NCBI GenBank assembly: GCA_002779605.1
Contig: PEWE01000005.1
Location: 1-40,725 of the forward strand
DNA length: 40,725 nt
Source of the DNA: Zetaproteobacteria bacterium CG06_land_8_20_14_3_00_59_53
GTDB taxonomy: Bacteria > Pseudomonadota > Zetaproteobacteria > Mariprofundales > Mariprofundaceae
Reading direction: 5' to 3'
Within the stretch, counting starts at the first letter, position 1; each line of letters opens with the position of its first letter. Positions 15,280 to 19,466 of this stretch are shown here, piece after piece. The position numbers and the translations under genes are program-made. Under the pieces are notes generated by a model. The model was not told the DNA's origin. It did no database searches and saw only the letters and a program-made list of their open reading frames with translations.

Positions 15280-15915
15280 TCAACCGCACTTGGAGTCGCC
15301 ACACTCCAGACAAGTGTTGCAGTTGTCCAGGCGGACGACGGCCATGGCGCCGCATTTGTCGCACATATTGCCCTTGGCGACGGCATCGGCACCCAGTTTG
15401 GCGGTGGCTTCGCGGCGCTTGGCTTCAAGCTCCGGGGTGGACAGCTGGCCTTCCATCATGCCGATGGATACCAGATGCGCCTGGATGGTTTCGCCGATCT
15501 CGGCAACCATCGAAGGCATGTATTTGCCACCCTTCTTGTAGTAGCCGCCGAGCGGGTCGAACACGGCCTTCAATTCCTCCACCAGGAAGGTGACATCACC
15601 GCCCTTGCGGAAGATCGCGGAAATAACGCGGGTCAGCGCCACAATCCACATGAAGTGCTCCATGTTCTTCGAGTTGATGAAGATCTCGAACGGACGGCGA
15701 TGCTCATCCGGCTTGCCTGAGTTGATCACGATATCGTTGATCGTGATGTACAGCGCATGCTCGGAATGCGGTGTCTTGATCTTGTAGGTGGAGCCTTCAA
15801 GCACATCGTCGCGCTCCAAAAGTGGCGCGATATGCGTGACCGTGGCGTCCTCTTTCTTTTCGTCCGGACGCACGACCTCGTAGGCGGTGATCTTCTTCTC
15901 AATCTTTGTGCTCAT
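15280..15915 (-). CDS. nrdJb: NrdJb: C-terminal subunit of split class II ribonucleotide reductase
   Basis: This 211-residue protein corresponds to the C-terminal part of B12-dependent ribonucleotide reductase that is separate in Pseudomonas aeruginosa (nrdJb). The TSCPD-type domain (about 35-150) includes GSTYKIKTP, RRPFEIFINSKNMEHF and FRKGGDVTFLVEE. The Cys-rich tail has six cysteines (185, 188, 199, 202, 205, 210), which probably form a zinc ribbon and deliver electrons from thioredoxin to the NrdJa active site. The start at MSTKIEKK is fixed by AGGAGG 6 nt upstream. Unlike the closely spaced Pseudomonas pair, 237 bp separate it from nrdJa here, and two small ORFs fill that gap. Confidence 0.88.
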   Translation of the reverse strand: MSTKIEKKITAYEVVRPDEKKEDATVTHIAPLLERDDVLEGSTYKIKTPHSEHALYITINDIVINSGKPDEHRRPFEIFINSKNMEHFMWIVALTRVISAIFRKGGDVTFLVEELKAVFDPLGGYYKKGGKYMPSMVAEIGETIQAHLVSIGMMEGQLSTPELEAKRREATAKLGADAVAKGNMCDKCGAMAVVRLDNCNTCLECGDSKCG

Positions 15916-16072
15916 GGTTTCCTCCTGCTGCATCATCGCGCCTGGCGGATGATGCCTGCTGTTCGTATGGCCGGGCCATCAGTTCGCTGATGCCGGCATG
16001 GTAAAATTCATTGAATAACTGCTGCATGCGGTACTGAATCTCTTCCTGCTCCGCGGTAATATATTTCGGCAC
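15899..16072 (-). CDS. Candidate 57-residue ORF between nrdJa and nrdJb
   Basis: Reading on the minus strand from GTG at 16072, a stop-free frame of 57 codons encodes a charged helical peptide beginning MPKYITAEQEEIQYRMQQLF and overlaps the nrdJb start by 17 bp. Such an overlap is typical of coupled genes. The ribosome site is weak (AGGAAG about 16 nt upstream), so translation is not certain; an internal ATG (MQQLF) is an alternative start. No family is recognised. The frame might also be a relic of a linker if nrdJa and nrdJb were once one gene. Confidence 0.4.
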   Translation of the reverse strand: MPKYITAEQEEIQYRMQQLFNEFYHAGISELMARPYEQQASSARRDDAAGGNHEHKD

Positions 16073-16152: not shown

Positions 16153-18336
16153 CTAGAACTTGCCATAATAGCCTTCCTTGAGGGCGTCGAAGAGGTTGGC
16201 GGCGCTGTGCATCTCGCCGTCGTACTCGATCTCCTCGTTGCCCTTCACCTCGATCACGGTGCCGTCTTCCAGCGTGAAGCGGTACATGGTCTTCTCCAGA
16301 TCCGCATCCTTGACCAGCACGCCCTGGAAGGCCTCCGGATTGAAGCGGAAGGTGGTGCAACCCTTCAGGCCCTTCTCGTAGGCGTAGAGGTAGATGTCCT
16401 TGAAGTCCTCATAGTCAAAATCGGTCGGCACGTTGGCGGTCTTGGAGATCGACGAATCCACCCACTTCTGCGCGGCGGCCTGGATATCCACATGCTGCTT
16501 GGGCGTGACCTCGTCGGCGCTGATGAAGTAGTCCGGCAGCTTTTCGTCCTCCTTGTCGGAGAACGGCATGGCCTTCGGGTTGATCAGTTCGCGGTAGGCC
16601 AAGAGCTCGAAGGAGAACACATCCACCTTCTCCTTGGACTTCTTGCCCTCGCGGATGACGTTGCGCGCATAGTGATGCGCAAAGGAGGGCTCGATGCCGT
16701 TGGAGGCGTTGTTGGCCAGGCTCAACGAGATCGTGCCGGTCGGTGCGATCGAGGAATGGTGGGTGAAGCGGCAGCCGGTTTCCTCAAGCTCTTTCAGCAT
16801 GGCGGCGTCTTCAGGGTTGCCGGTTTCGGCGAACTTCTTCAGATAGTTCGAGTAGCGCGCCCACAGGATACGGCCCTTGAGTTTATCACCCGCGCGTATG
16901 CCGTCCTCAAGCATCTGCGGACGCTTGAGCATCATCTCGGCGGTGACCTCGAACTCCTTGTCCATCACCGGCGCTGCGCCCTTTTCACGGGCCAGTTCGA
17001 TGCCGGTGGCAAAGCCGGCTCTGGCCATCTCGTAGGATACCTGTTCGGTGAAGGCCAGCGATTCAGGCGAGCCGTACGGGGTGCGCAGCATGGTCAGTGC
17101 GCTGCCCAGGCCGAGGAAGCCCATGCCGTGACGGCGCTTGGAAAGGATCTCCTCGCGCTGCTTCTCCAGCGGCAGGCCGTTGATCTCCACCACATTGTCC
17201 AGCATGCGGGTGAATACGGCGATCACTTCGCGATACAGGTCCCAGTCGAAATGCGCCTGCTCGGTGAACGGGTGGCTGACGAACTTGGTCAGGTTGATCG
17301 ATCCCAGCAGGCATGCGCCGTAGGGCGGCAGCGGCTGCTCGCCGCACGGGTTGGTGGCGCGCACATCTTCACACCACCAGTTGTTGTTCATGCTGTTCAC
17401 TTCGTCGATCAGGATGAAGCCCGGCTCGGCGTAGTCATAGGTGGAGGCCATGATGACATCCCACAGGCGGCGGGCGCGGATGGTTTTATACACACGGCAG
17501 GCGGTGCGGCCTTCGTCGTCCTTCAGGTAGCTGTCGTTGCTGCCCGGCCAGTGCTTCCAGACGATGCGGATGGCCTCATCCTCGACCTCGCTGGCATTGG
17601 CCGGGAAGATCAGGTCCCAGTCGGCATCGTTTTTCACGGCTGCCATGAAATCGGCGGTGATCAGGCAGGACAGGTTGAACTGGCGCAGACGACCGTCTTC
17701 GCGCTTGGCGCGGATGAAGTCCATCACGTCGGGGTGCGAGATGTCGAAGGTGCCCATCTGCGCGCCGCGACGACCGCCGGCGGAGGACACGGTGAAACAC
17801 ATCTTGTCGAAGATATCCATGAAGGACAGCGGGCCTGAGGTATAGGCGCCGGCACCGGACACATAGGCACCCTTCGGGCGCAGCGTGGAGAATTCATAGC
17901 CGATGCCGCAGCCGGCTTTCAGGGTGAGGCCTGCTTCGTGCACCATGGAAAGGATGCCGTTCATCGAATCGGGCACCTGACCGGATACCGTGCAGTTGAT
18001 GGTCGAGGTTGCCGGTTTGTGGGCATTGGCACCGGCATTGGAGGTGATGCGGCCGGCGGGGATGGCGCCGTACTGCAGGGCCCAGGTGAAGCGCTCGTAC
18101 CAGTGGGCGCGCTTGCTTTCCTCCTCGACATCGGCCAGTGCCCGGGCCACGCGGGTGTAGGTGTCGGCGATGCTATGATCGACAGCGTTGCCGTTCTTGT
18201 CCTTCAGGCGGTACTTCTTGTCCCAGATGTCTTCGCTGGCCGGCTGCATCGGAATCTCAGCCGCGGCGTGTTCATGGCGAATCTCCGCGGCGGCTTTGTG
18301 AACGGTATTTCCCAATGTGATATCAGCCAGATTCAT
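16153..18336 (-). CDS. nrdJa: NrdJa: adenosylcobalamin-dependent ribonucleotide reductase, catalytic subunit
   Basis: Class II ribonucleotide reductase makes deoxynucleotides from ribonucleotides with a radical derived from coenzyme B12, independent of oxygen. The 727 residues carry the catalytic set: Cys115 in STINCTVSG, Asn329, thiyl-radical Cys331 and Glu333 in NPCGEQPLPPYG, and the second redox Cys342, with the 11-residue spacing found in Thermotoga NrdJ. PTGTISL is the phosphate-binding motif. The chain stops where P. aeruginosa NrdJa stops; the remaining C-terminal domain is encoded by nrdJb downstream. GGAGG lies 9 nt before the ATG. The roughly 140-nt leader and the NrdR-like and DnaA boxes upstream suggest tight control with the cell cycle and nucleotide supply. 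Confidence 0.95.
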   Translation of the reverse strand: MNLADITLGNTVHKAAAEIRHEHAAAEIPMQPASEDIWDKKYRLKDKNGNAVDHSIADTYTRVARALADVEEESKRAHWYERFTWALQYGAIPAGRITSNAGANAHKPATSTINCTVSGQVPDSMNGILSMVHEAGLTLKAGCGIGYEFSTLRPKGAYVSGAGAYTSGPLSFMDIFDKMCFTVSSAGGRRGAQMGTFDISHPDVMDFIRAKREDGRLRQFNLSCLITADFMAAVKNDADWDLIFPANASEVEDEAIRIVWKHWPGSNDSYLKDDEGRTACRVYKTIRARRLWDVIMASTYDYAEPGFILIDEVNSMNNNWWCEDVRATNPCGEQPLPPYGACLLGSINLTKFVSHPFTEQAHFDWDLYREVIAVFTRMLDNVVEINGLPLEKQREEILSKRRHGMGFLGLGSALTMLRTPYGSPESLAFTEQVSYEMARAGFATGIELAREKGAAPVMDKEFEVTAEMMLKRPQMLEDGIRAGDKLKGRILWARYSNYLKKFAETGNPEDAAMLKELEETGCRFTHHSSIAPTGTISLSLANNASNGIEPSFAHHYARNVIREGKKSKEKVDVFSFELLAYRELINPKAMPFSDKEDEKLPDYFISADEVTPKQHVDIQAAAQKWVDSSISKTANVPTDFDYEDFKDIYLYAYEKGLKGCTTFRFNPEAFQGVLVKDADLEKTMYRFTLEDGTVIEVKGNEEIEYDGEMHSAANLFDALKEGYYGKF

Positions 18337-18446
18337 GGTCGGCTTCCTCCCGAAGTGTTTAATTCTGTTGTTCCCTGTTTACTTGTCTGCTCGTCGTCGG
18401 CTGGTGTGCCCGGCACGATGTGCAGCCATCCAAGCCCCTGTTGCGG

Positions 18447-18471
18447 GTCGCCGGGAGTGCGGCACGGCGAC
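18447..18471 (-). promoter_or_regulatory. Leader hairpin of nrdJa
   Basis: A 7-bp GC stem GTCGCCG/CGGCGAC (18447-18453 with 18465-18471) lies right at the predicted 5' end of the nrdJa transcript. An outer pair TGCAGCC/GGCTGCA (18421-18427 with 18473-18479) could enclose it, although the outer arm may start slightly before the predicted transcript start. The words CCCGCAAC recall the cobalamin riboswitch core, but the other conserved elements are missing. Confidence 0.35.
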
Positions 18472-18480
18472 CGGCTGCAA

Positions 18481-18509
18481 ACCTTAATCCACTACATATT
18501 GGGAGTCAA
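18481..18509 (-). promoter_or_regulatory. Predicted nrdJa promoter
   Basis: On the minus strand TTGACT (18509-18504) and TAAGGT (18486-18481) are separated by 17 bp. The -35 is near consensus and the -10 is weak. The NrdR-like box lies across the spacer, an ideal place for repression. Confidence 0.5.
18489..18504. promoter_or_regulatory. NrdR box-like palindrome 1
   Basis: CCACTACATATTGGGA agrees with the NrdR consensus acaCwAtATaTwGtgt at 12 of 16 positions. It overlaps the nrdJa promoter spacer. Confidence 0.55.
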
Positions 18510-18520
18510 TGATTTACTCT

Positions 18521-18536
18521 CCACGAGAGGTGGGGT
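18521..18536. promoter_or_regulatory. NrdR box-like palindrome 2 (degenerate)
   Basis: CCACGAGAGGTGGGGT keeps the outer CCAC/GTGG symmetry but matches the NrdR consensus at only about 8 of 16 positions. Its offset from box 1 is 32 bp, the three-turn phasing typical of paired NrdR sites. Confidence 0.3.
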
Positions 18537-18561
18537 TTATGTTGCACATTGTATGCACCGC

Positions 18562-18581
18562 TTATCCACAGCTTATCCCGC
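18562..18581. promoter_or_regulatory. DnaA boxes upstream of nrdJa and ubiE
   Basis: TTATCCACA at 18562-18570 is the perfect DnaA box, followed after 2 bp by the variant TTATCCCGC (18573-18581) in the same orientation. They lie about 50 bp upstream of the nrdJa -35 and 85 bp before the ubiE start. In E. coli DnaA boxes upstream of nrdAB link nucleotide synthesis to replication. Confidence 0.5.
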
Positions 18582-18665
18582 CGTGGCCTTCTGCGAAGCT
18601 GCGTCAGATGGTTGTTGGAGGGGGGCTTTGCGGCTGCTACGCTTGCGCCCATGGAAGGGACAGTC

Positions 18666-19466
18666 ATGCATAGCAATCAGACAGACGAAGCAGCCGCGGG
18701 GCGTACACATTTCGGTTTTGAGACGGTCAGCGGTACGGAGAAGCGTAAGCGCGTGATGGGTGTGTTCTCATCGGTAGCCGGAAAATACGATCTGATGAAT
18801 GATTTGATGAGTGGCGGTATGCACCGCCTGTGGAAGCGGCGCATGTTTTCGGTTGCTGCCGTGAAAGATGGCTCGCGCGTGCTGGATGTGGCTGCGGGTT
18901 CTGGCGATATCGCCATCGGCCTGCTCGGCAAAATGGATTCCAATGGGGGCTCCAAAGGGGGTGTCGGGGGGCGTGTGGTGCTGACCGATCTGAACGGTCC
19001 GATGCTGGCCGAGGGCGCGCGCCGCGTGGTGGATCACGGGCTGTTGCCGGGGCGTGCCGATTGCATCCAGTCGGACGGCACAAAGCTGGCCTTTGCCGAC
19101 AACAGTTTCGATGTGGTGTCCATCGCCTTCGGCATCCGCAACTTTGTGGATATCGAGGCGGGCCTTGCCGAATTCCGCCGCGTGCTCAAGCCCGGCGGGC
19201 AGTTCATCTGCCTGGAGTTCTCCCGCCCCGCGCTGCCGCTGCTTGATGTGATCTATGATGCCTATTCATTTAATATGATTCCGCTGATGGGCGAGATGGT
19301 CACCGGTGACCGCGCCTCCTATCAGTATCTGGTCGAATCCATCCGTCGTTTTCCCGACCAGAAACGCTTTGCAAAGCTGATCGAGTGGGCAGGTTTCGAT
19401 CTGGTGCGCTACGAGAATCTGACCGGCGGCGTGGTGGCGCTGCATCGAGGATATAAAATATCATGA
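18666..19466 (+). CDS. ubiE: UbiE ubiquinone/menaquinone C-methyltransferase
   Basis: UbiE transfers a methyl group from SAM to the quinone ring (demethylmenaquinol and the C2 position of the ubiquinol precursor). The 266 residues start with the family-typical THFGFETVSGTEK and VFSSVAGKYDLMNDLMS, then SAM motif I VLDVAAGSGD (72-81), motif II around DNSFDVVSIAFGIRN, and end with GGVVALHRGYK. A Gly-rich insertion (about 91-102) lengthens the loop after motif I compared with E. coli UbiE. The start at 18666 is chosen for GGAAGGGA upstream; Met at 18651 is possible. It overlaps ubiJ by 4 bp and heads a ubiE-ubiJ-ubiB operon. Confidence 0.95.
   Translation: MHSNQTDEAAAGRTHFGFETVSGTEKRKRVMGVFSSVAGKYDLMNDLMSGGMHRLWKRRMFSVAAVKDGSRVLDVAAGSGDIAIGLLGKMDSNGGSKGGVGGRVVLTDLNGPMLAEGARRVVDHGLLPGRADCIQSDGTKLAFADNSFDVVSIAFGIRNFVDIEAGLAEFRRVLKPGGQFICLEFSRPALPLLDVIYDAYSFNMIPLMGEMVTGDRASYQYLVESIRRFPDQKRFAKLIEWAGFDLVRYENLTGGVVALHRGYKIS

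Follow-up and report, generated by a model that had tools for sequence, protein, structure and literature searches.

A putative composite DnaA-NrdR control region upstream of the class II ribonucleotide reductase gene nrdJ in Mariprofundaceae

We analyzed a 40,725-nucleotide stretch of contig PEWE01000005.1 from Zetaproteobacteria bacterium CG06_land_8_20_14_3_00_59_53, a member of the Mariprofundaceae; this whole stretch is referred to as the window, and the organism as the host. The minus strand of the window encodes the catalytic chain of a class II ribonucleotide reductase (RNR), and the region between nrdJ and a divergent ubiE-like gene holds predicted promoter elements, two NrdR-like boxes, and four DnaA-like 9-mers. 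The features are as follows:

15280-15936, minus strand: nrdJb-like gene downstream of nrdJ, TSCPD domain (PF12637), 218 aa
16153-18336, minus strand: nrdJ (nrdJa), catalytic chain of an adenosylcobalamin-dependent class II RNR, 727 aa (TIGR02504, 578.6 bits; cutoff, 399.95)
18486-18481, minus strand: predicted -10 element TAAGGT, weak, after a 17-bp spacer
18504-18489, minus strand: proximal NrdR box TCCCAATATGTAGTGG, 12/16, filling the -35/-10 spacer
18509-18504, minus strand: predicted -35 element TTGACT, sigma-70-like, good; its final base doubles as the first of the proximal NrdR box
18536-18521, minus strand: distal NrdR box ACCCCACCTCTCGTGG, 9/16 by consensus sum
18540-18548, minus strand: DnaA-like 9-mer TGTGCAACA, 6/8, 3 bp from the distal NrdR box
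18551-18559, minus strand: DnaA-like 9-mer GGTGCATAC, 6/8
18562-18570, minus strand: perfect DnaA box TGTGGATAA (TTATCCACA on the plus strand), exact match
18573-18581, minus strand: weak DnaA-like 9-mer GCGGGATAA, 5/8 to TGTGNATAA
18651-19466, plus strand: ubiE-like methyltransferase gene, divergent from nrdJ (TIGR01934, 247.1 bits; cutoff, 158.35)

The NrdJ protein matches both PF02867 and PF00317. The protein of the downstream TSCPD gene, for which we use the name nrdJb by analogy with Pseudomonas aeruginosa, aligns with the C-terminal part of NF006417, and the divergent genes run ubiE-ubiT-ubiB, with ubiE first. A class I RNR requires a PF02867 protein. In the host genome (2.37 Mb, 99.95% complete), the class II NrdJ is the one PF02867 catalytic subunit, and searches with PF02867 and PF13597 recovered no second RNR catalytic gene. 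A class III RNR (PF13597) was ruled out as a second dNTP source, with no match in any of the 74 family genomes, the host included. Judging by gene content, NrdJ is apparently the sole RNR of the host, and this inventory fits the suggestion of the initial annotation that the class II enzyme is the main dNTP source. Control of this B12-dependent RNR by a cobalamin riboswitch was considered and dropped, since no Rfam family was found in the nrdJ leader (positions 18000 to 18800, E values up to 1). Among the relatives, NrdJ carries an in-frame insertion, intein-like in appearance, at approximately residue 332 in genomes G022, G037, G044, G060 to G063, and G074 to G077 (approximately 1,090 to 1,214 aa in the complete frames), and nrdJ at one further locus (L087, on G042:C191) contains a single in-frame TAG.

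The promoter of nrdJ contains a putative tandem NrdR operator, consisting of paired boxes approximately three helical turns apart that are weak by consensus in the host. The distance from the proximal to the distal box is exactly 32 bp, or three helical turns, and the distal box starts precisely where the initial annotation had placed a weaker second box. The same annotation described an NrdR-like box overlapping the nrdJ promoter; the 12/16 box and the good -35 element stand, but the host -10 is poor, and a simple promoter scan called no promoter at nrdJ. A lone 12/16 NrdR box was dropped as evidence because such boxes are at chance level genome-wide: in the host genome, a relaxed NrdR pattern allowing up to three mismatches gave 24 + 29 matches, compared with 39 + 37 for the reversed control. 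The strict consensus with three mismatches had no match in the window, the proximal box having four mismatches. This box is credible because of its conservation in relatives, not because of its own score. TTGAC is conserved at the -35 place in 51 of 65 family loci. Both host boxes carry C4, A6, T11, and G13; among the 57 family loci whose boxes are 32 bp apart, these positions do not vary in either box, an invariance that is partly circular given that the boxes were picked by consensus score.

Abutting the NrdR pair, the four DnaA-like 9-mers are arranged head to tail from 18581 to 18540 with an 11-bp period, and all gaps between neighbors are 2 bp. One is a perfect DnaA box, and the weaker 9-mers (5 to 6 of 8) fall short of a classical DnaA box. 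Exact DnaA boxes are rare in the host genome (18 in 2.37 Mb versus 7 for the reversed control); boxes with one mismatch are frequent, the window having 11 against a shuffle mean of 4.5. A perfect DnaA box plus a variant had been reported upstream of the NrdR-like boxes in the initial annotation; the perfect box was confirmed, but the variant matches at only 5/8, and two better 9-mers (6/8 each), located on the NrdR side of the perfect box, had been missed.

We read the DNA upstream of nrdJ at each of the 67 loci with an NrdJ match among the 74 family genomes; a match of any kind was found in 69 genomes, that of G004 and G005 being class I nrdA. The best-scoring NrdR pair served as an anchor in 65 of the 67 loci (with a spacing of 32 bp in 57 loci and 31 bp in 8). 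Conservation of the boxes upstream of nrdJ had been proposed as a test in the initial annotation, and the outcome was positive for both site types: 59 of the 67 family promoters contain both strict NrdR cores, and 64 contain an 11-bp array scoring at least 17/24, a score reached by 2 of 1,320 strand-oriented control pieces of 75 bases taken from the same loci. The eight loci without the two NrdR cores all belong to one genus, g4. A 9-mer of at least 7/8 is present in 63 of the 67 loci (16 of 1,320 control pieces), and an exact 8/8 DnaA box is present in 49. Three loci (L135, L152, and L136) failed the array threshold, and L133 has the array with a best box of just 6/8. L135 and L152, from genomes G018 and G017, have no sensible NrdR pair and were left out of the anchored profiles; both genomes keep an exact TGTGGATAA approximately 225 bp upstream of nrdJ. 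Box and array occur together in 11 of 13 genera, and with the relatedness of these genomes, the counts represent species rather than independent events.

The spacing and phase of the array are also conserved. With the NrdR pair as the reference point, TGTGNATAA matches on the nrdJ coding strand peak at -46, -35, -24, and -13, with a shifted series of peaks in some genera. Across the 65 anchored loci, the mean three-box score is 19.55/24 at a spacing of 11, compared with 12.12 to 15.51 at spacings of 9, 10, and 12 to 16 (the second best being 15.51 at 13) and 11.96 for shuffled loci (SD, 0.15; maximum of 100 shuffles, 12.31). Around the best box, units of at least 6/8 are found at +11 in 45 of 63 loci, at +22 in 32, and at -11 in 21, and the mean box score drops toward the promoter, from 7.78 at 0 to 5.98 at +11 and 5.51 at +22 (of 8). 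The offset from the best box to the distal NrdR box is 0 to 3 modulo 11 in 62 of the 63 loci, with shifts by whole units. Two other families of the order include four nrdJ-bearing genomes, all of which score 17 to 18/24 at a spacing of 11 and 11 to 15/24 at spacings of 10 and 12 (700 bp each). In one of them, G076, repeats of GTAGGAGCGGTCTCCGACCGCGAATGG-like units (L183, local positions 838 to 1500) separate the DnaA-NrdR promoter from nrdJ.

To gauge specificity, we scanned complete genome sets with two fixed patterns. A strict array pattern hit 27 distinct places in 26 of the 74 family genomes, and the reversed pattern hit 1. Judged by coordinates, upstream regions of nrdJ account for 24 of these places, and the remaining three (in G010, G016, and G053) lie between dnaA and dnaN, as backed by Pfam; this intergenic region is the presumed oriC. 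A composite pattern, an exact DnaA box followed by the NrdR pair, has a single occurrence in the host genome; across the phylum, 25 of 398 genomes carry it, always upstream of nrdJ, and its reversed control was not found. This combination is well beyond what chance would give. All carriers are Zetaproteobacteria (24 in the family and 1 in another family), with none among 320 genomes outside the class; the patterns are blind to boxes in the E. coli direction, so this zero does not equate to a lack of DnaA control in those genomes. The composite pattern is strict enough that many family members escape it, and because the 7/8 and 17/24 thresholds and both genome patterns were fixed after the family alignment, these counts measure specificity, not discovery. 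An outgroup of nrdJ loci, mostly gammaproteobacterial (Xanthomonadaceae and relatives), was scored at 71 of 72 loci, one having been dropped for having no upstream DNA; within 450 bp upstream, an 8/8 box in the same direction was found in 3 of the 71 and an array of at least 17/24 in 4. Two of the outgroup loci (L039 and L053), from gammaproteobacterial MAGs, have 11-bp DnaA-like arrays beside an NrdR box upstream of nrdJ, and the arrangement is therefore not strictly confined to Zetaproteobacteria. The genome comparisons establish the arrangement, phase, conservation, and specificity of the nrdJ control region as sequence features, and they point to a DnaA part organized as a phased array of 11-bp period, with almost no counterpart in the family genomes outside the presumed oriC.

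Both candidate regulators are encoded by the host. The presence of nrdR in the genome was another test named in the initial annotation, and the gene was found (L186, 2984 to 3445), its product carrying a Zn-ribbon (PF22811, 73.1 bits) and an ATP-cone (PF03477, 72.6 bits). Host NrdR has D15, R17, and RRRR at 26 to 29, the residues named as NrdR DNA contacts (PMC9110341), and its nearest solved chain is the E. coli-type NrdR 9gex (E value, 1.5e-46). Across the family, nrdR was detected in 65 of 74 genomes. Six nrdJ-bearing genomes, several of them incomplete, have no nrdR match (G017, G018, G042, G060, G061, and G071); the tandem NrdR pair is missing in two of these (G017 and G018) and kept in the other four, for which genome incompleteness may account, and none of the 61 nrdJ-bearing genomes with nrdR was set aside for a missing pair. 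Host DnaA (L185, 2107 to 3432, minus strand) contains the box-recognition domain PF08299 (112.2 bits) and shares GGRDHTTVL with domain IV of E. coli DnaA (1j1v). A second Bac_DnaA_C protein (46.1 bits, in a 321-aa frame) was found at G000:C13:8102-8296.

The closest parallel is the class Ia operon nrdAB of E. coli, in which DnaA boxes likewise lie upstream of an NrdR pair in front of the main RNR. The initial annotation had stated that nrdAB is under both NrdR and DnaA, and the cited literature agrees: DnaA activates or represses this operon depending on its nucleotide state and level, with three boxes counted (PMC8203912), and an NrdR box pair has been described (PMC12176259). Fis and IciA are also listed as nrdAB regulators. 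Relative to the nrdA start, the nrdAB promoter shows both site types, with TTATCCACA at -162, TTATGCACT at -150, and NrdR-like boxes at -93 and -62; the two scored DnaA boxes are 12 bp apart, and the first NrdR box follows at a distance of 57 bp. In contrast, host nrdJ, a class II gene, has three to four boxes at 11 bp, in the reversed direction and 3 bp from the NrdR pair. The suggestion of nrdAB-like logic on a class II enzyme is thus supported at the level of site arrangement. The nrdJ genes of P. aeruginosa and Streptomyces coelicolor are also preceded by a pair of NrdR boxes, of which one overlaps the promoter (PMC4409342 and PMC9110341); the word DnaA is absent from the main text of PMC4409342, and we found no paper on DnaA at nrdJ in the open-licence literature. 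The array itself resembles the arms of oriC (the left and right halves in E. coli, and Thermotoga maritima), in which same-direction boxes are separated by 2-bp gaps and run from strong to weak (PMC10316083), whereas the host array is located at a metabolic promoter. Control of RNR by DnaA and NrdR is already known; what would be new is the class II enzyme as its target and the oriC-like form of the array.

We propose that positions 18481 to 18581 form a composite nrdJ operator-promoter in which ATP-DnaA on an oriC-like array, beside an NrdR operator, tunes the sole RNR, a reading that we consider quite probable. The binding of DnaA and NrdR at nrdJ, and the effect of each, are our inference. 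When loaded with dATP and ATP, NrdR occupies a pair of boxes approximately three turns apart and kinks the DNA (PMC9110341), and in T. maritima, same-direction boxes 2 bp apart give the most cooperative ATP-DnaA pairing (PMC10316083). When dATP is plentiful, an NrdR tetramer with dATP and ATP would bridge both boxes, kink the DNA, and shut out RNA polymerase. DnaA would sit on the strong box, and ATP-DnaA would spread from there in head-to-tail fashion, covering the weaker boxes in the direction of the promoter in the style of an oriC arm, such that a rise of ATP-DnaA around initiation would activate nrdJ or relieve NrdR repression. We lean, with modest confidence, toward activation or relief as the main effect of the array, because it adjoins the NrdR operator and is located on the upstream side of the polymerase site; its position of roughly -66 to -107 from the predicted start point is soft, being derived from the weak -10.

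A purely repressive role for DnaA is the foremost alternative, and we regard it as somewhat unlikely. A filament extending toward the promoter could block RNA polymerase or aid NrdR, such that ATP-DnaA would lower nrdJ expression, much as high ATP-DnaA represses E. coli nrdAB (PMC8203912), and the strong-to-weak gradient of boxes toward the promoter suits ATP-DnaA-dependent extension. However, the array stops upstream of the polymerase site, and NrdR would already provide repression. It is improbable that the array binds DnaA without regulating nrdJ, serving instead to titrate or reactivate the initiator or to form part of an accessory origin. Known examples of DnaA titration or reactivation sites are datA and DARS. 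The host nrdJ array, at 20/24, does beat the best array of the host's own dnaA-dnaN region (16/24), where only imperfect boxes are found, but the near-universal phase of the array to the NrdR pair and promoter is hard to reconcile with a titration site, which needs no particular promoter, as is its persistence at nrdJ in loci where no ubiE neighbor was found.

The position of the array between two divergent genes raises the question of which one it serves. A ubiE homologue is present in the examined upstream flank of 50 of the 67 family loci, with the array between both genes, and the DnaA sites could in principle belong to the ubiE operon. Box and array are nevertheless kept in all 17 loci whose examined flank has no ubiE match (two of these flanks are short, with 473 and 634 bp to the anchor), which, together with phasing to the NrdR pair, largely refutes ownership by ubiE and makes it very improbable. 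Class I nrdA, with NF005544 as the best NCBIfam match in each case, occurs in eight family genomes. None of the seven usable nrdA loci has an upstream array of at least 17/24 (best, 16/24 at L116), the eighth, L118, being uninformative with 40 bp of upstream DNA; at L123, 9-mers of 7/8 are present but point the other way. An NrdR-like pair (23 to 26 of 32, by consensus sums only) occurs at seven class I nrdA loci. In the six nrdA-bearing genomes that also have nrdJ, the array stays at nrdJ (18 to 21/24). Kept where no ubiE was found and absent at the usable nrdA loci, the DnaA element therefore belongs with nrdJ. Genus g2 (G004 to G006; genomes 67 to 93% complete) has no nrdJ and no nrdR match, with class I nrdA in G004 and G005, and may have swapped its RNR and lost NrdR. 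Finally, a chance likeness, or an 11-bp repeat that serves a protein other than DnaA, has very little probability: single NrdR-like boxes are at chance level and weak 9-mers are not callable alone, but the shuffle, control-piece, and reversed-pattern controls oppose chance, and the occurrence of the strict pattern elsewhere only in dnaA-dnaN regions points to DnaA.

DnaA coupling of dNTP supply to initiation has been worked out mainly for the class I operon of E. coli. Under the composite operator-promoter reading, the sole RNR of the host would sense the initiator and the dATP pool together, and dNTP supply and the start of replication are probably wired together in this organism. More tentatively, the promoter of nrdJ might act as one switch at which the ATP state of the initiator competes with the dATP pool, with RNR going up when origins fire; if true, the class would in effect have relocated an arm of the origin to its dNTP gene. 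A class-wide, near-unique array on an apparently sole class II RNR suggests that DnaA control tracks the RNR that feeds replication and not the enzyme class. With one RNR, one operator, and an array otherwise found at the presumed oriC, these organisms would offer a clean natural system for the division of labor between ATP-DnaA and NrdR.
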